Assembly: GCF_038397775.1 (NCBI RefSeq)
Contig: NZ_CP151650.1
Span: 3,844,001-3,908,000, forward strand
Direction of reading: 5' to 3'
DNA: 64,000 nt
Origin: Pseudomonas sp. RC10
Lineage (GTDB): Bacteria; Pseudomonadota; Gammaproteobacteria; Pseudomonadales; Pseudomonadaceae
The translations under genes and the position numbers were made by a program. The notes beneath the pieces were generated by a model that worked only from the letters and a program-made list of their open reading frames with translations, was not told where the DNA came from and searched no databases. Positions 33,832 through 41,353 of the stretch are shown here, one piece after another. Numbering within the stretch: the first letter of the stretch is position 1; every line of letters begins with the position of its first letter.

Positions 33832-34029
33832 TCAACAACACTTCGGCCCGGCCTTCCCGCCATAACGCGCATCCTGGCGTTCCCGAAAGAACACTTCGTA
33901 CGACATCACCGGCTGGTCTGGGTGGGTCTTCTGCATGTGCTCGACGTAATTGTCGTAGTCAGGCATGCCCACCATCAGGCGGGCGGCCTGCCCGAGATAT
34001 TTGCCGAGGCGACTCAGGTCATTGAACAT
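33832..34029 (-). CDS. ybdD: YbdD/YjiX-family small protein
   Basis: This 65-residue protein ([58 protein letters not shown]...) is a clear member of the YbdD/YjiX family that accompanies CstA and BtsT carriers. The start at 34029 overlaps the cstA stop as TGATG, so translation is coupled. The protein ends in a Cys-Cys pair. Partner genes of this family are needed for full transport activity of CstA-type pyruvate carriers in E. coli; the mechanism is unknown. An upstream in-frame start inside cstA was rejected. Confidence 0.93.
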
Positions 34030-36089
34030 CAGTGCGCTTCCGGCATCGCCTGGAACGGCGCTTCCTTGTCGCTGCGCTCTTTCTTGACCCACGCCGCACG
34101 GCCCACTTTCACGGCGTAGAACAGAATGCTCAGCACCACGAACAGGAACAATGTGGTCAGCGCTGCGTTAGTGTACGCGTTGAAGATCACGTGCTGCATC
34201 TGATCAACGGTCTTCGCCGGAGCGATGACCTGGCCAGCCTCCGCCGCTGCACTGTATTTCTTGGCCAGGGCCAGGAAGCCAACGGCCGGGCTCGGGTCGA
34301 ACAGCTTGATGAAGCCTGCGGTCACGGTGCAGATCAGCAGCCATGACGCTGGCAGCATGGTCACCCACACGTACTGTTGACGCTTCATTTTGATCAGCAC
34401 GACGGTCGCCAGCATCAGCGCGATACCCGCCAGCATCTGGTTGGAGATGCCGAACAGCGGCCACAGGGTGTTGATGCCGCCCAGTGGATCGATCACGCCT
34501 TGATACAGCAGGTAACCCCACAACGCCACGCAGCCGCCGGTGCCAATCACGTTGGCGGTCCACGACTCGGTGCGTTTCAGGGCAGGCACGAAACTGCCCA
34601 GCAGGTCTTGCAGCATGAAGCGACCGGCACGGGTGCCCGCATCAACCGCCGTCAGAATGAACAGCGCTTCGAACAGGATCGCGAAGTGGTACCAGAACGC
34701 CATGGTGTTCTGGCCTGGCAGCACTTGGTGCAAAATCTGCGCGATACCCACGGCCAACGTTGGCGCACCACCGGCGCGAGCCAGTACGGTGTTTTCGCCG
34801 ATGTCCTTGGCCACAGCGGTCAACGCTTCAGGCGTGATGGCAAAGCCCCAACCGGTGATGGTCTGAGCGACTGCAACGACGTCGCCGCCGACCACTGCCG
34901 CCGGGCTGTTCATGGCGAAGTAGACGCCTGGGTCGATGACCGAGGCCGCGACCATCGCCATGATGGCGACGAAGGATTCCATCAGCATGCCGCCGTAACC
35001 GATGTAACGGGCGTTCTTCTCGTTATCCAGCAGTTTCGGCGTGGTGCCCGAGGAGATCAGCGCGTGGAAACCCGACACCGCACCACAGGCGATGGTGATG
35101 AACAGGAATGGGAAGAGCGCGCCTTTCCAGACCGGACCGGTGCCGTCGGTGAACTGAGTCAGGGCCGGCATTTTCAGCTCAGGCGCAAGGATCAGGATGC
35201 CGATCGCCAGGGCGACGATGGTGCCGATTTTCAGGAAGGTCGACAGGTAGTCACGTGGCGCGAGCAGCAGCCAGACCGGCAGCATCGCGGCAACGAAGCC
35301 GTAGCCGACGAGCATCCAGGTGATCTGCACACCGGTGAAGGTGAAGACGTGCGCCCACTCAGGGCTCGCAGCCACTTGGCCACCGGCCCAGATCGACAGC
35401 AGCAACAGCACGACGCCGATGATGGAAATCTCACCGATGCGGCCCGGACGGACATAGCGCATGTACACGCCCATGAACATCGCAATCGGGATGGTCGCCA
35501 GCACGGTGAACATGCCCCACGGGCTTTCAGCCAGGGCCTTCACCACGATCAGCGCCAGCACCGCAAGGATGATGATCATGATCAGGAAGCAGCCGAACAA
35601 GGCGATGGTGCCGGGAACGCGGCCCATTTCCTCGCGGACCATGTCGCCCAGCGATCGGCCGTTACGGCGAGTGGACAGGAACAGGATCATGAAATCCTGC
35701 ACCGCACCGGCCAGGACCACACCGGCGATCAGCCAGAGCGTGCCCGGCAGATAGCCCATTTGCGCGGCGAGCACCGGGCCGACCAGCGGACCTGCGCCGG
35801 CGATGGCGGCAAAGTGGTGACCGAAGAGAATGTGTTTGTTGGTCGGCACGTAGTCCAGACCGTCATTGTTGATCACCGCCGGGGTGGCCCGGGTCGGATC
35901 GAGCTGCATGACGTGATTGGCGATGAACAGGCTGTAGTAGCGGTACGCAACCAGATAAATGGCGACGGCGGCGACGACGATCCAGAGTGCGTTGATGGCT
36001 TCGCCGCGACGCAGCGCGACGACACCCAAGGCGCAGGCCCCAAGGGCTGCAACGGCGAACCAACCCAGATGTTTGGTCAGTCGGGTCAT
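34029..36089 (-). CDS. cstA: CstA-family carbon starvation protein (pyruvate/peptide transporter)
   Basis: This 686-residue inner-membrane protein has about 16-18 hydrophobic helices. The family block [41 protein letters not shown] lies at about residues 75-115, and [20 protein letters not shown] at about 140-160. Length matches E. coli CstA (701). CstA and BtsT take up pyruvate, and CstA was first linked to peptide use under carbon starvation. The ATG at 36089 follows GGCAGGAGACCCACA. It forms an operon with ybdD. The promoter region holds two inverted repeats at 36195-36206 and 36212-36233. Confidence 0.93.
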
Positions 36090-36194
36090 TGTGGGTCTCC
36101 TGCCGAAGCTCATGGCTTGCGGCGTAATTGTTATTGTGTGATCCGGGGTAACGGAGCGTTGCCACTATCCGCGCAGTTGTCAGCAAGAGAAATT

Positions 36195-36206
36195 CGTACT
36201 ACTACG
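36195..36206. promoter_or_regulatory. CTAC-rich inverted repeat upstream of cstA
   Basis: CGTACTACTACG at 36195-36206 has matching CGTA and TACG ends. It lies six bases from a stronger palindrome and repeats the same CTAC/GTAG words, so the two may form one operator for a NarL/LuxR-type response regulator. Confidence 0.45.
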
Positions 36207-36211
36207 GTTTC

Positions 36212-36233
36212 GTCTGCGTAGTTCTACGCAGAC
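36212..36233. promoter_or_regulatory. 22-base palindrome upstream of cstA (candidate operator)
   Basis: GTCTGCGTAG (36212-36221) and CTACGCAGAC (36224-36233) are perfect inverted repeats separated by TT, about 123 bases upstream of the cstA start. Size and GTAG/CTAC ends resemble LuxR/NarL-class operators; a regulator of that class is encoded at 39057-39689. Confidence 0.6.
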
Positions 36234-36254
36234 ACACTTAGCGAGGCAATTTCC

Positions 36255-36339
36255 CTGTGTGGAGCCGGCTTGCTGGCGAATGCGGTCTGCCTGTACCTCA
36301 TCAGGCGACTGACACGCCGCCTTCGCCAGCAAGCCGGCT
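36255..36339. repeat. REPIN of GCCGGCTTGCTGGCGAA type, right end cut by the IS110 element
   Basis: Left arm 36255-36280 and right arm 36322-36339 are inverted repeats. The right arm stops at CCGGCT and its expected end CCCACAG reappears at 37512-37518, after the insertion element. Joining the two flanks restores a normal REPIN arm. Confidence 0.85.
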
Positions 36340-36354
36340 TGTATGTTTAGACTT

Positions 36355-36510
36355 GATGGGGTGGGAGGGACGGAAAGCCGAATCTGACTCTAGCCAGTAC
36401 AGACCGTTGGGAGACTTCCAGCCCCACCCTGTCACCTACAAGCGCCGATATGGAATGCATCGGCCTGGACCGACGATAGAAGCAAGCCAGCGCTTACGGT
36501 GAACCCCCAG
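36355..36510 (+). ncRNA. Candidate bridge RNA of the IS110 element
   Basis: The left non-coding end folds by eye into two stem-loops. Loop 1: stem GGGTGGG (36359-36365)/CCCACCC (36423-36429) plus GGAA (36372-36375)/TTCC (36416-36419); inside are AAGCCG (36375-36380), identical to the left target, and TGGGAG (36408-36413), complementary to CTCCCA at the right target. Loop 2: stem TCACC (36432-36436)/GGTGA (36498-36502) and AGCGC (36441-36445)/GCGCT (36490-36494); inside are ATGGAAT (36450-36456), like the right end ATAGAAT, and GATAGAAG (36475-36482), pairing 6 of 8 with CTTGTATG at the left end. Exact ends are not known. Confidence 0.65.
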
Positions 36511-36543
36511 CAAGCTCTTCAACCCTAACTCGGAGGGTGTGAC

Positions 36544-37506
36544 ATGGCAATCCTTGATGCAGCGGCGATTGTGGGTGTCGATGTGGCGATGGCGGAACTT
36601 GTCACCGCTCAGCGTGGTGTGGATAAAACTCATTGTTTGGTCAATGAGCGAACTTCGATTCACCACTGGCTCAAGACATTGCCTCAAGGCAGTGCCATCG
36701 CCCTCGAGGCGACCAATACCTACCATCTGGACCTAGTGGAAATGGCCCATGACATGGGGCACCTGGTGTTTGTCGTCGATGCGGCACGCGTAAGCAAATA
36801 TCGAGAAAGTCTGGGCAAGCGCGCCAAAACAGATGCGTGCGATGCACATCTGCTGGCTCGCTATCTGGAAAAGGAAGGTGACGAGCTGCGTCAGTGGAGC
36901 CCGCCACCCCAGTTGCACACCCAGCTCAAGCATCTGCTGCATCGCAGGGCCTCGCTGGTCAATAGCCAGACGTCACTGCGCCAAGGCTGGAAGGATGAAA
37001 AAGACCTCAGGAAGGGGTTCGAGAAGTTGATGCGTCGCTTCAGCCATCTGATCAAAGATATCGAGAAACAGCTCAAGCAAGTGCTGATCAAGTCCGGTGA
37101 AATGGATCAGGTCAAACGTTGCCAGGGCATCGAAGGCGTCGGGTTCCTGACCGCCACAGCGCTGTTTGCGGCATTCCTTCGAGGCGAATTCAAAAACGTA
37201 GATGCGTACATCGCCTATCTGGGGCTGGATTTGCGGGTGTCGGATTCCGGGAACAAATCCGGTCGCCGCCGGCTAAGCAAGAAAGGCGACCCCGAGGTAC
37301 GCCGGCTAGGCTACAACGCTTCAATGGCCGCCTGCCGATCGGCGACATGGAAACCGTATTACGAGAAGAAAATAGGCGAGGGGAAAGCCAGAACTGAAGC
37401 GTTGACGATATTGAGCAGGAAGCTCGCAGGGGTGGCCTTCTCGCTGATGAAGAAACGGGAAGAGTACGACTCTACGAAACGTTTGGGGGTTGCCCCCCAA
37501 ACATAG
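36544..37506 (+). CDS. IS110-family transposase (DEDD recombinase)
   Basis: This 320-residue recombinase has an N-terminal RuvC-like DEDD domain: VGVDVAMAEL with the first Asp, IALEATNTYHLDL with the Glu, and KTDACDAHLLARYL with the last Asp pair. A coiled middle region follows, then the C-terminal transposase_20 domain (CQGIEGVGFLTATALFAAF, AYIAYLGLDLRVSDSGNKSGRRRLSKKGDPEVRRLGYNASMAA) containing the catalytic Ser region. Length matches the family (300-400) and no frameshift is seen, so it may be active. The ATG at 36544 follows CGGAGGGTGTGAC. The stop codon TAG is part of the right-end donor sequence. Confidence 0.94.
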   Translation: MAILDAAAIVGVDVAMAELVTAQRGVDKTHCLVNERTSIHHWLKTLPQGSAIALEATNTYHLDLVEMAHDMGHLVFVVDAARVSKYRESLGKRAKTDACDAHLLARYLEKEGDELRQWSPPPQLHTQLKHLLHRRASLVNSQTSLRQGWKDEKDLRKGFEKLMRRFSHLIKDIEKQLKQVLIKSGEMDQVKRCQGIEGVGFLTATALFAAFLRGEFKNVDAYIAYLGLDLRVSDSGNKSGRRRLSKKGDPEVRRLGYNASMAACRSATWKPYYEKKIGEGKARTEALTILSRKLAGVAFSLMKKREEYDSTKRLGVAPQT

Positions 37507-37563
37507 AATCTCCCACAGTTTGAACCGTGTACACCTCGGTTTATGCGGCCACGCCTTTCTCCT

Positions 37564-37587
37564 GTGGGAGCGAATTCATTCGCGAAA
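37564..37587. repeat. Single REP sequence (GAATTCATTCGCGA type)
   Basis: GTGGGAGCGAATTC followed by ATTCGCGAA is one REP arm with no partner arm nearby. It lies between the insertion element and the histidine kinase gene. Confidence 0.8.
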
Positions 37588-37664
37588 AGATGTTCCAGTC
37601 GCCCCGGATGTTCATGCTGTAATACGCCCACAACAACACCCGCTCCCGCCGGACATCCCACGCC

Positions 37665-39023
37665 ATGCAACTCAAACACAAGATCGTCGCCCTTGGCATC
37701 CTGCCGCTGATCCTTGCCGTGTGCGTGATCTGCGCGCTGGTGATCGTGCAGAACCAGCGTCTGGGCGAGCAGCAGGCGCAGTTGATCGAGGACAGCATTC
37801 TGTCCAGCAAGCGCGCCGAGTTGAAAAACTACGTGGAGATGGCCATGAGCGCCCTCGCCCCGATCTACGACAGCGGCCGCAATGACGAACAGACCAAGCA
37901 GCAGGTATTGGAAGAACTGGCCAAGCTCAGCTTCGGCATCGATGGCTATTTCTTCGTCTACGACCAGAGCGGCCGCAACCTGATGCATCCACGGCAGGCA
38001 GCGCTGGTGGGCAAGGACTTGTGGAACATGACCGACCCGCAAGGGCTGCTGGTGATCCGCGCACTGCTGCAAAGCGCGGAGTCCGGCGACGGTTTCCAGC
38101 ATTACGCCTGGGAAAAACCGTCCACCGGGCAGATCACCGACAAACTCGCCCATGTGGTCATGCTCAAGCGCTGGGGCTGGATGCTCGGCACCGGGATCTA
38201 TCTGGAAGACGTCGAACGGGCCACGCAACAGGCCCGACAGGAAGTCGCGCGGGGCATCTACGCGACCATGCTCGACATCGGCGGCGTCGCCCTGATCGCC
38301 GTGCTGCTGGTGTTCGTCTGCGGTGTGACTCTCAACGCCAGCGAGCACCGTCTGGCCGACCGCAAGCTGCAGATGCTCAACCAGCGCATCATGAACCTGC
38401 AGGAAGAAGAGCGCTCGCGGCTGTCACGGGAATTGCACGACGGGATCAGCCAGGTGCTGGTGTCGATCAAATTTCAGTTCGAGCTGGCCGGTCTGCAACT
38501 CGAGGGCCACGACCCGCTCGGCCTGGAGACCCTGCGTCACGGCACCGAACGGCTCGGCGAGGCCATCGGCGAAATCCGCACCATCTCCCACGACCTGCGC
38601 CCTTCCCTGCTCGACACCCTGGGGCTGGCGGCGGCGGTCACGCAACTGGTGGCGGAGTTCGAGCAACAGACCGGGCTGACCATCCAGTACACCCACAACC
38701 TCAGCAAGTTGAAGCTGGCAGAAGGTGCACCGGTGGCGCTGTTCCGGATTCTGCAAGAGGCGCTGACCAACATCGAGCGTCACGCCCATGCACAGAACGT
38801 CTACATCGACTTGCGCAGCACGAAAAAACAGGTGCAACTCACTGTGCGCGACGACGGCGTGGGCTTCCGGGTCGACGTCGAGCGTTTGCAAGAGATACAG
38901 GGCGGCATCGGTTTGCGTAATATTCGCGAACGCGTCGAGCATTTCCAGGGCCAGCTCAATCTCTACTCGGTCCCCGGCCACAGCGAACTGACCGTGACCA
39001 TGCCCATCAACGTCGCCGCCTGA
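37665..39023 (+). CDS. Cache-domain sensor histidine kinase (NarX/DegS-type core)
   Basis: This 452-residue membrane kinase has a first membrane helix at about residues 10-28 (ALGILPLILAVCVICALVIV) and a periplasmic single Cache domain at about 30-200 with the typical DGYFFVYDQSGRNLMHPRQAALVGKDLWNMTD and KRWGWMLGTGIYLEDV. A second helix (LDIGGVALIAVLLVFVCGV) follows. The HisKA_3 dimerisation motif EEERSRLSRELHDGISQVLVSIK carries the phospho-His, and the ATPase domain has NIERHAHA, DDGVGF and GIGLRNIRERV. Single-Cache sensors of this kind often bind small carboxylates. It is co-transcribed with the response regulator 33 bases downstream. No strong ribosome site is seen. Confidence 0.9.
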   Translation: MQLKHKIVALGILPLILAVCVICALVIVQNQRLGEQQAQLIEDSILSSKRAELKNYVEMAMSALAPIYDSGRNDEQTKQQVLEELAKLSFGIDGYFFVYDQSGRNLMHPRQAALVGKDLWNMTDPQGLLVIRALLQSAESGDGFQHYAWEKPSTGQITDKLAHVVMLKRWGWMLGTGIYLEDVERATQQARQEVARGIYATMLDIGGVALIAVLLVFVCGVTLNASEHRLADRKLQMLNQRIMNLQEEERSRLSRELHDGISQVLVSIKFQFELAGLQLEGHDPLGLETLRHGTERLGEAIGEIRTISHDLRPSLLDTLGLAAAVTQLVAEFEQQTGLTIQYTHNLSKLKLAEGAPVALFRILQEALTNIERHAHAQNVYIDLRSTKKQVQLTVRDDGVGFRVDVERLQEIQGGIGLRNIRERVEHFQGQLNLYSVPGHSELTVTMPINVAA

Positions 39024-39056
39024 CCCTTCATTTCAGACAGGAACCCGCACCCCATC

Positions 39057-39689
39057 ATGACCGCCAGCCAGACCATCCGCATTGCCCTGGTCGACGACCA
39101 TTCGCTGGTCCGTGACGGCGTGCGCGCCCTGCTTGCCACCCGGCCTTTGTTCGAGGTGGTAGGCGAAGCCGAGAACGCGGCGCAGGGACTAAAGATGTGT
39201 GAAGAGGTCAAGCCGGACATCCTGCTGGTGGACATCGGCCTGCAAGACATGAACGGCCTGGAACTGACGCAACTGATCCGCCAGCGCTGCCCGACGATCA
39301 AGATTCTGATCCTGAGCATGTACGACAATCAGGAATACGTCGCCACGTCGATCCGCGCCGGGGCCAGCGGTTACGTGCTGAAAAACGCACCGTCCCGGGA
39401 AATCGTCGCGGCCATCGAGGCGATTGCCACCGGCGGCACGTTCTACAGCGCTGAGGTGACCCTCAAGCTGGTGTCGAAAAAGACCGACGAAAACGAACTC
39501 ACGCCCCGTGAAGTGCAGGTGCTGGTGGGTCTGGCCAAGGGGCTGGACAACAAAACCCTCGCCCGCGACCTGGCCATCAGCGTCCGCACCGTCGAAACCC
39601 ACCGCCTGAGCATCCGCCGCAAACTGAAAGTCGACAAACCGGCGGGGCTGGTGAAATATGCCATGGAGCATGGGTTGTTGTTGCCGTGA
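39057..39689 (+). CDS. NarL/LuxR-family response regulator
   Basis: This 210-residue response regulator has a receiver domain in residues 1-125 (acidic DD at IALVDDHSLVRDG, phospho-Asp in DILLVDIGLQDMNG, conserved Lys in GYVLKNAPS) and a C-terminal LuxR-type helix-turn-helix (ELTPREVQVLVGLAKGLDNKTLARDLAISVRTVETHRLSIRRKL). It is the partner of the Cache-domain kinase immediately upstream. Its target is unknown. The palindromes upstream of cstA, on the far side of the IS110 element, are candidates because of their LuxR-class look and because the element seems to have split this neighbourhood. Confidence 0.92.
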   Translation: MTASQTIRIALVDDHSLVRDGVRALLATRPLFEVVGEAENAAQGLKMCEEVKPDILLVDIGLQDMNGLELTQLIRQRCPTIKILILSMYDNQEYVATSIRAGASGYVLKNAPSREIVAAIEAIATGGTFYSAEVTLKLVSKKTDENELTPREVQVLVGLAKGLDNKTLARDLAISVRTVETHRLSIRRKLKVDKPAGLVKYAMEHGLLLP

Positions 39690-39743
39690 CCCTGTGTCGC
39701 CGCCGCTGAACCTGTGGAGAGGTCCTTCATGTCGCCGCCGAAC

Positions 39744-39833
39744 CTGTGGGAGCGAATTCATTCGCGAAGGTGGGTCAGGCAACACAGCTCCATCGACCGG
39801 ACGGGCCTCTCGCGAATAAATTCGCTCCCACAG
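39744..39833. repeat. REPIN, GAATTCATTCGCGA type
   Basis: Arms 39744-39767 and 39810-39833 are inverted repeats with one mismatch (CATTCGCGA against AATAAATTC strand). Spacer 42 bases. It lies between two convergent two-component gene pairs. Confidence 0.9.
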
Positions 39834-39859
39834 TGGGTCGACGTTGACCGCGAAGCCGT

Positions 39860-41353
39860 TCACTCCCTCGGCAACACCCGCTCCGCCGTTTCCTGATCCA
39901 CCGGCAGTGCAAATCGGAATGTCGCACCCTGCCCCGGCACGTCGATCAGCTCGATCCGGTGCCCATGCAGTTGCAGAATCTGGTGCACGATTCGCAACCC
40001 CAGCCCGCCATCTCGCCGTGCACCGCCAATATTAAACGGACGCAGAAACAGCCCTTCACGCAACTCGGCGGCAATCCCCGGCCCGGTGTCGCTGATCGTC
40101 ACCTCGACAAAACGCGCCTTCGGCAATAACGCCACCTTGATCTCGCCGCCCTGGGGCGTGTGCCGCAGGGCGTTGTCCAGCAGGTTGGTCATCACCCGCT
40201 CGATCAGCCCCAAGTCGGCATGCACGCCGGGCACCGACGGCGCAAAGCTCGGGGTCAGGGTCACGGCCTTGGACTCGGCGCCGAGTTCGAACTTCTGGAA
40301 AATGTCCTGCACCAGATCGGTCAGCGAAAACCGCTCCACCACCGGCACCACGAAACCATGCTCCAGCCGCACCAGTTCCAGCAGCGACTGCGCCAACCCG
40401 CCCACCTTGCGGCTCTGGTCCAGCGCGATGCCCAGATAACGCCGCCGCTCCTCGGGCGTGAGGCTGGCGTCCTTGACCGACAGCACCTCCAGATAGCCGT
40501 GCAGCGATGCAAGCGGGGTGCGCAGGTCATGGGAAATGTTCGCCACCAGCTCGCGGCGGTCCTGGCTTTGGCGGGTCAGGGTTTGCCATTGCTCGCTCAA
40601 GCGGTTCTGCATTTGTTTGAACGTTGCGTCGAGCACGGCGATTTCATCGTGGCCCTGCCGAGCCGATTCGGTCGAAGACGCGGGCAACGGCACCGGCGCA
40701 GCATTGATGTCGAAATGGCTCACCGCGTAGGTCAGTCGCCGCAGTGGCCGGGTGATCCAACCGAACGCTGTTAGACCCGCCAACAGGCACAGCAAGGCAA
40801 TCAAACCAATCGACCACAACGCCGTGTTCAGGGCCTCACTGGTGGCGCCGCGCTCGGCAAAGCGGTCATGGGCCTCGCCCAGCAGCACCACGTACAGAAA
40901 ACCCGCCGGTTTGCCCATGACCATCAACGGCGCGGCGCTGAACACCTTGCGCGTGTCCATGCTGCGCGGGTCATCCCCCAGAATCGGCAGCGGCTCTCCG
41001 GCCAGCAGCTTGCGCACGGGCGCCAGATCGACTCGGTCCCGCAGCATGTGATCCTTGGGCGCGGCGTCGCCGACGATCTTGCCTTCGCCGTCGAGCAGGT
41101 ACACCTCGACGCTGGGGTTCACCAGCATCAACTGGCTGAACAGCTCGCGCACGGCATCGGGTTTCAGGCCGTTGGCGTCCATCAATTGGGTGTCGCGGGC
41201 GATGTGCTGGGCGAGGTCGCGGGACAGGCCCTGCACCACCTCCAGCTCATGCATTTTGTTGGAGCGCACCTGCAACAGCACCGACGTGCCGCAGCAGATC
41301 AGCAACAGAAACGCGAAGACCAAGGACAGCCGCTGGGTCAGGGTCATGTTCAC
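39860..41353 (-). CDS. Sensor histidine kinase linked to the msrB-dipZ-msrA locus
   Basis: This 497-residue kinase has a first membrane helix (LSLVFAFLLLICCGTSVLL), a periplasmic sensor of about 140 residues, a second helix (ALWSIGLIALLCLLAGLTAFGW), HAMP, HisKA (NISHDLRTPLASLHGYLE, phospho-His) and HATPase (MTNLLDNALRHTPQGG, SDTGPGI). The sensor has about seven methionines and no cysteine. I use GTG 41353, which overlaps the regulator stop as GTGA and has GGAG seven bases upstream; ATG 41347 is the alternative. It is coupled to the response regulator and divergent from periplasmic MsrB, so it may sense oxidative damage in the envelope; that is an inference. Confidence 0.87.
   Translation of the reverse strand: MNMTLTQRLSLVFAFLLLICCGTSVLLQVRSNKMHELEVVQGLSRDLAQHIARDTQLMDANGLKPDAVRELFSQLMLVNPSVEVYLLDGEGKIVGDAAPKDHMLRDRVDLAPVRKLLAGEPLPILGDDPRSMDTRKVFSAAPLMVMGKPAGFLYVVLLGEAHDRFAERGATSEALNTALWSIGLIALLCLLAGLTAFGWITRPLRRLTYAVSHFDINAAPVPLPASSTESARQGHDEIAVLDATFKQMQNRLSEQWQTLTRQSQDRRELVANISHDLRTPLASLHGYLEVLSVKDASLTPEERRRYLGIALDQSRKVGGLAQSLLELVRLEHGFVVPVVERFSLTDLVQDIFQKFELGAESKAVTLTPSFAPSVPGVHADLGLIERVMTNLLDNALRHTPQGGEIKVALLPKARFVEVTISDTGPGIAAELREGLFLRPFNIGGARRDGGLGLRIVHQILQLHGHRIELIDVPGQGATFRFALPVDQETAERVLPRE

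Follow-up and report, generated by a model that had tools for sequence, protein, structure and literature searches.

Insertion into REPs is known for several IS110-family elements. Targeting of these repeats by ISPpu9, ISPpu10 and ISPa11 was reported in 2006 (PMC1525189), and IS621 of E. coli is an established case of RNA-guided REP insertion (PMC11208160). For ISPa11, which inserts into P. aeruginosa REPs, an RNA (seekRNA) co-purifies with the transposase and contains segments matching the REP target (PMC11187229). An extended-data legend of PMC11208160 (Durrant et al. 2024) gives a predicted bridge RNA for ISPpu10, and the covariation of guides with targets over thousands of IS110 elements is already in print (PMC11208160). 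ISPpu9 of P. putida KT2440, an IS110 element found in REPs, possesses a long, structured regulatory 5'-UTR (PMC8450116) and has been described with two RNAs, Asr9 (antisense) and Ssr9.

Here, we describe an IS110-family element in a 64,000-nucleotide stretch of Pseudomonas sp. RC10 DNA (the window; contig NZ_CP151650.1, positions 3,844,001 to 3,908,000). An initial annotation, made from the letters of the window, implied that a REP-specific bridge recombinase would be new; with IS621 already studied as an RNA-guided REP inserter and a REP-matching RNA described for ISPa11, that implication does not hold. The window's element appears, from its sequence, to carry a guide RNA and is a fresh example of a known mechanism. 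The features of the insertion and its site are as follows.

36256..36339, no strand: REP pair (REPIN), comprising the left REP and that portion of the right REP which precedes and includes the target core CT (36338-36339)
36340..37511, forward strand: IS110-family insertion sequence, 1172 bp, one of six identical copies
36340..36543, forward strand: left non-coding end, 204 nt, with the predicted bridge RNA
36544..37506, forward strand: IS110 recombinase, 320 aa, matching PF01548 and PF02371, both above cut-offs
37507..37511, forward strand: very short right end, following the stop codon and closing in the core CT
37512..37518, no strand: right part of the interrupted REP (CCCACAG)

The placement of an IS110-family element at these coordinates within a broken and resumed REP, as given in the initial annotation, is borne out: the REP ends as TTCGCCAGCAAGCCGG-CT at 36339 and picks up again as CT-CCCACAG at 37510, and the open reading frame has both domain matches. 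The site is not a single REP as had been supposed, since 36256-36339 together with the tail forms an inverted REP pair, of which the right-hand member is interrupted. Pairs of sites in opposite orientation, approximately 74 bp apart, recur in the genome. A sequence search of the home genome (6.71 Mb, one contig) identified six copies of the element, all 100% identical. Each has AGCAAGCCGG immediately before CT at the left junction and CC[C/T]ACA at the right, and every copy lies, as anticipated, at the same CT of a REP-derived site with AAGCCGG. The remaining flanks differ; six identical copies with different flanks and the same junction define the element ends and the CT core exactly, to within the ambiguity of the CT itself. 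A near-identical element is present in Pseudomonas sp. NFACC02, where the left junction is unchanged in all four loci, the right junction reads CC[CT]ACA in three of three, and the left end carries four base differences, none of them within the guides. A scan of genome contigs found seven loci, every one at NFACC02 contig ends. In a plasmid collection, a DNA search gave no match to the element, and the matches of a protein search were all below 60% identity. The element is an intact IS110-group insertion sequence that, because its copies are identical, has been amplified recently.

The layout is that of the IS110 group, with a left end of 204 nt, 5 nt past the stop codon, a CT core and one type of site in all six copies. 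The IS1111 group is defined by a long right end and long subterminal inverted repeats (PMC11208160); here the right end is 5 nt, and the only inverted repeat at the element ends is the 7-bp AAACATA/TATGTTT. These two motifs (37499-37505 and 36342-36348) flank the donor core of the circle, and the relative G217 has AACCATA/TATGGTT. ISPa11 resembles the window's element in having a non-coding-end RNA with segments that match a REP target, but is of the IS1111 type, with its long non-coding end downstream of the gene rather than upstream.

The best PDB sequence matches of the recombinase are the ISCro4 (E 1.2e-25) and IS621 (E 5.2e-25) transposases. Residues D13, E55, D97, D100 and S235 are invariant across four aligned proteins and, placed via the alignment of the relative P0025, line up with the DEDD motif and the serine of IS621 (residue names as in PMC11208158). 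The protein therefore has both domains expected of the IS110 family, a DEDD RuvC-like domain and a Transposase_20 domain with a conserved serine. P0025 is named ISPpu10 by one source; the window's element shares with the ISPpu10 group its Pseudomonas host, its family and its REP target, but is only 55% identical to the protein so named. The last recombinase codons contain a perfect 9-bp hairpin (37481-37502; GTTTGGGGG-TTGC-CCCCCAAAC). Among seven elements folded, most have different, matching arms in this place, and G217 has a weak hairpin only.

The left end contains two predicted loops and four guides, identified by sequence and by comparison.

36355..36433, forward strand: predicted target-binding loop, with outer stem GATGGGGTGGG (36355-36365)/CCCACCCTGTC (36423-36433) and inner hairpin TCTGACT..AGTACAGA (36383-36403)
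36375..36380, forward strand: left target guide (LTG) AAGCCG, identical to the top strand of the left target, 1 nt off the family register
36408..36413, forward strand: right target guide (RTG) TGGGAG, complement of CTCCCA at 37510-37515
36442..36493, forward strand: predicted donor-binding loop, with outer stem GCGC/GCGC and inner hairpin TCGG/CCGA
36450..36456, forward strand: left donor guide (LDG) ATGGAAT, identical at 6 of 7 positions to ATAGAAT at 37503-37509, the last position a possible G-T wobble
36476..36486, forward strand: right donor guide (RDG) AUA (36476-36478) ... CAAG (36483-36486), pairing with CT-TGTAT of the circle

The initial annotation had proposed all four guides, in the IS621 order LTG, RTG, LDG, RDG and with CT as the core. 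LTG, RTG and LDG are present in that order, LTG being one nucleotide out of the family register, and it was the register of RDG that had to be corrected. The candidate GAUAGAAG / GATAGAAG, of which GATAGAAG was the RDG first proposed, was rejected: its AAG (36480-36482) varies among relatives, whereas CAAG, the exact complement of the core CT and the following TG, is the same in all 37 left ends. The AUA part can pair with TAT further in. This split matches the layout of IS621, in whose structure A157-U158 and C162-G165 pair with the corresponding donor positions (PMC11208158) and the 3' part of RDG likewise pairs with the core plus the two donor bases that follow it. The likeness to IS621 extends to an IS110 recombinase, a left-end RNA with the target loop preceding the donor loop, the guide order, the CT core and a REP target; the differences are a distant protein, another REP sequence, an RDG stretch of 11 nt instead of 9, and the LTG shifted by one base. 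In relatives, the 7-nt LTG stops two bases 5' of the TCTGAC hairpin. Read in this family register, the window's LTG matches its target at 4 of 7 positions, and at 6 with a one-base slip; the guide common to G005, G128 and G383 is shifted in the opposite direction. The natural guide of IS621, too, is mismatched at one position of its usual natural target (PMC11208160), so imperfect guides are already known.

A plain minimum free energy (MFE) fold of the whole left end is not more stable than shuffled sequences (z = -0.66; 45 of 200 as good or better), and the two-loop structure proposed in the initial annotation therefore rests on comparison across relatives, where it is upheld. An alignment (A1) of 37 left ends, made up of the window's and 36 more, covers 37 genomes, of which two have a row in common with another genome and two have two rows each; it displays two loops arranged as in IS621. 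When a consensus fold was first computed from the left ends, the expected outer stem was missing, the G-rich arms being misregistered in the alignment. The outer target-loop stem was for this reason examined as a duplex of its two arms, which was strong in 37 of 37 cases, with means of -26.1 kcal/mol for an element's own arms and -23.0 for swapped arms. By our own criteria, the target loop folded alone formed its outer stem in 36 of 37 and its inner hairpin in 31 of 37, and the donor loop its outer stem in 31 of 37 and its inner hairpin in 25 of 37. For the other three helices, one of which is invariant, 91.6% of cells in A1 are paired, with 15 double-change cells compared to 2.5 in shuffles (0/500 as many) and a covariation score equalled by 0 of 500 shuffles; the count of further pair types was not unusual (65/500 shuffles). 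Slid versions of these helices scored lower, with the exception of a pair-type tie at +1. With the outer target stem enforced, 36353-36512 folds at -51.8 compared to an MFE of -52.2, so that a two-loop fold common to the relatives is available to the window's RNA at 0.4 kcal/mol above the minimum. These comparisons support the prediction of a two-loop bridge RNA layout like that of IS621. An Rfam search of 34000-40000 gave no match, and a promoter scan of the integrated element found none. The circle junction contains a weak promoter-like pair, TTGCCC-18-TATGTT (8/12), and 36 related junctions have weak promoter-like pairs as well, with a mean of 7.6/12 versus 4.2 in simple letter shuffles.

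The home genome contains a large set of alternative sites against which the choice of target can be judged. Free GCTCCYACA sites (core plus right half) number 1154, compared to 264 for a reversed-pattern control. Of these, 592 are GAATTCGCTCCYACA, another palindromic REP family that shares the right half, and 118 are AAGCCGGCTCCYACA, the guide-matched REP class. All six insertions are in the 118-site class and none in the 592-site family; if sites are equal and copies independent, the chance of six out of six in the guide-matched class is p ~1.5e-6. This genome has almost no AAGCCCG or AAGCTCG sites (two matches to GCRRGCYCGCTCCYACA), so specificity cannot be judged against them here. To the right of the core, CCC occurs in 5 of 6 insertions and in 43 of the 118 free sites (p = 0.03, one-sided Fisher test). 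This is weak evidence of a preference, since CCC is found in only one of three NFACC02 right junctions; in the relative G139, all 48 listed AAGCTCG sites (of 209) have CCT, and of three copies read the one in an AAGCTCG site has CCC. At one copy (L005; G000 C1 399055-400226) only GCCAGCAAGCCGG is left of the usual left REP arm, so an ordinary REP arm is unneeded, unless the flank was altered after insertion. The L005 site has an 11-bp inverted repeat, CTGTGGGAGCC/GGCTCCCACAG (found by eye), as if a REP pair had collapsed. Just beyond the window's insertion, at 37564-37586, is a REP-like sequence of another family (GTGGGAGCGAATTCATTCGCGAA), whose core pattern is present at 592 places in the genome.

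Guides and targets were compared among relatives of the element. Relatives at E <= 1e-30 occur in 57 of 398 genomes of the genus Pseudomonas, and left ends were read in 37 of the 57, for 93 copies; the rest are G091, whose left end the script missed, and 19 further genomes. Two or three copies were read in 29 of the 37 genomes, one in seven (even where more were listed) and all six in the window's genome. The right flanks begin with CCCAC in 85 copies and with CCTAC in six; the other two, both of G080, are CCCAC as read by eye, their right end lying approximately 200 bp outside the script's range. In G080 (L125 and L126), that right end is about 200 bp past the gene end, with REP-like sequence in between.

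Among the 93 copies there are 21 distinct left guides. Their identity to their own targets averages 5.71 of 7, versus 4.33 for the targets of other elements, and none of 20000 permutations, which treat guides as independent although related elements are not entirely so, was as good; allowing a one-base slip, the means are 6.09 and 4.75 (again 0/20000). An in-register match of 6 or 7 of 7 is found in 66 of 93 copies, and in 78 with the slip. The gain in guide-target identity falls at positions -2 to -6 (at -3, 0.87 versus 0.44), with little of it at -8 to -10. The covariation is mostly that of the left guide, few elements differing in their right guide; in G094, the RTG UAGGAG (TAGGAG) accompanies the site CTCCTACG in both copies. 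The agreement is not uniform: the RTG of G080 (TGAGAG) mismatches its own right flank CTCCCAC, the G066/G213 guide matches its own target weakly (4.5/7), and some guides fit the targets of other elements better than their own. Taken over the relatives, these sequence comparisons support covariation of guides with insertion sites, as expected of a bridge RNA.

With the six copies at one CT, the two-loop fold and the guide-target covariation, the proposal of the initial annotation that this RNA programs REP targeting is strengthened. We consider it very probable that the element is an intact IS110-group element whose left-end bridge RNA selects the REP site and whose DEDD/serine recombinase exchanges strands at CT. 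The 204-nt left end would encode the bridge RNA. In loop 1, AAGCCG would pair with bottom-strand bases to the left of the core and UGGGAG with the top strand at the core and rightward, together selecting the REP site AAGCCGG-CT-CCCACA. Loop 2 would pair with the joined ends of the element, ATAGAAT-CT-TGTAT, and the recombinase would carry out strand exchange at the CT common to target and circle. Expression of the RNA from the circle, its assembly with the protein and the chemistry of the reaction are inferred by analogy with IS621.

The principal alternative is direct recognition of the REP palindrome or hairpin by the recombinase protein, with the left end being only a structured 5' UTR that controls translation, as has been proposed for ISPpu9 (PMC8450116). 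REPs are palindromic, the 2006 work discussed REP targeting in terms of transposase recognition (PMC1525189), and the inverted repeat at L005 leaves hairpin recognition compatible with that site. Against this, no copy of the six lies in the 592 sites of the other palindromic family, in which the right half is the same, and guide and target change jointly over 21 elements; we regard this explanation as very improbable. Still less credible is that the guide matches are a chance resemblance within G+C-rich REP-like sequence, the REP preference having some other cause. Guides and REP types are indeed alike, such that wrong pairings already reach 4.33 of 7, and the relatives are not fully independent, but no permutation attained the observed match, and the rise in identity is concentrated at positions -2 to -6.

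A different question is whether the slipped LTG marks the window's element as partly decayed and now moving poorly. The 4/7 match in the family register would fit this, as would the long end branch (0.8) of its recombinase on the tree described below. Six identical copies, along with NFACC02 copies that retain the same guides amid four other left-end substitutions, imply recent movement, and IS621 functions as a precedent for a guide with a natural mismatch (PMC11208160); decay is accordingly unlikely, if less so than the two preceding alternatives. Site selection by a left-end bridge RNA is retained as the very probable explanation of the REP specificity.

If guides select sites in this manner, their distribution among relatives bears on how they evolve. 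On a maximum-likelihood tree of 36 recombinases (G005, with a short translation, left out), guide classes that we assigned ourselves, without a shuffled-label control, change at least 17 times. CCGG-type guides occupy four separate places (G000, G334, G385 and G070, the placement of G000 being unsure), and the well-supported sister pairs G052/G214, G039/G290 and G128/G301 have differing guides. Recombination that swaps left ends between elements could also give rise to such changes. Guides were also compared with the REPs of their hosts, with five REP types counted in the 37 genomes and G018 and G080, which have no counted sites, skipped. Over 35 genomes, guides match the host REP mix at 5.82 of 7 versus 5.34 for shuffled guides (0/10000), and the 19 distinct guides at 5.66 versus 5.16 (0/10000 shuffles). 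A stronger relationship, in which guides would merely follow the most abundant REP of the host, was rejected: across the 35 genomes the best-matched of the five types makes up anywhere from 3% to 100% of counted sites. Guides are associated with the host REP repertoire. This is an association and not a direction, because the most abundant type is often not the one matched best and elements persist only where their sites exist; for the latter reason, host association and guide evolution are not fully separable.

On balance we lean toward the view that the target loop of this Pseudomonas IS110 lineage is an adaptive "address label", in which the recombinase and donor loop are kept and the 7-nt left guide is repeatedly rewritten to fit host REP families, in some cases with a slipped register. 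If true, this would be a natural reprogramming of an RNA-guided recombinase, traced across hosts. In the open-licence literature, as searched by titles and the opening parts of abstracts, we found no paper on repeated REP-type switching within one IS110 lineage. REPs are extragenic, as their name states, and REP-directed guides may for this reason keep the element in sites where it does little harm.

The Pseudomonas system offers more than 100 countable targets at home and an internal control in the form of a second REP family within the same cell; the relatives add some 20 naturally occurring guides that share a single scaffold. It would permit tests of the tolerance of guide mismatch and register, and of the adaptation of RNA-guided insertion sequences to new hosts. 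In G000 C1, GCTCCCACA sites form clusters at ~90,000-90,650 and 339,370-339,760, with a regular spacing of ~132-135 bp.
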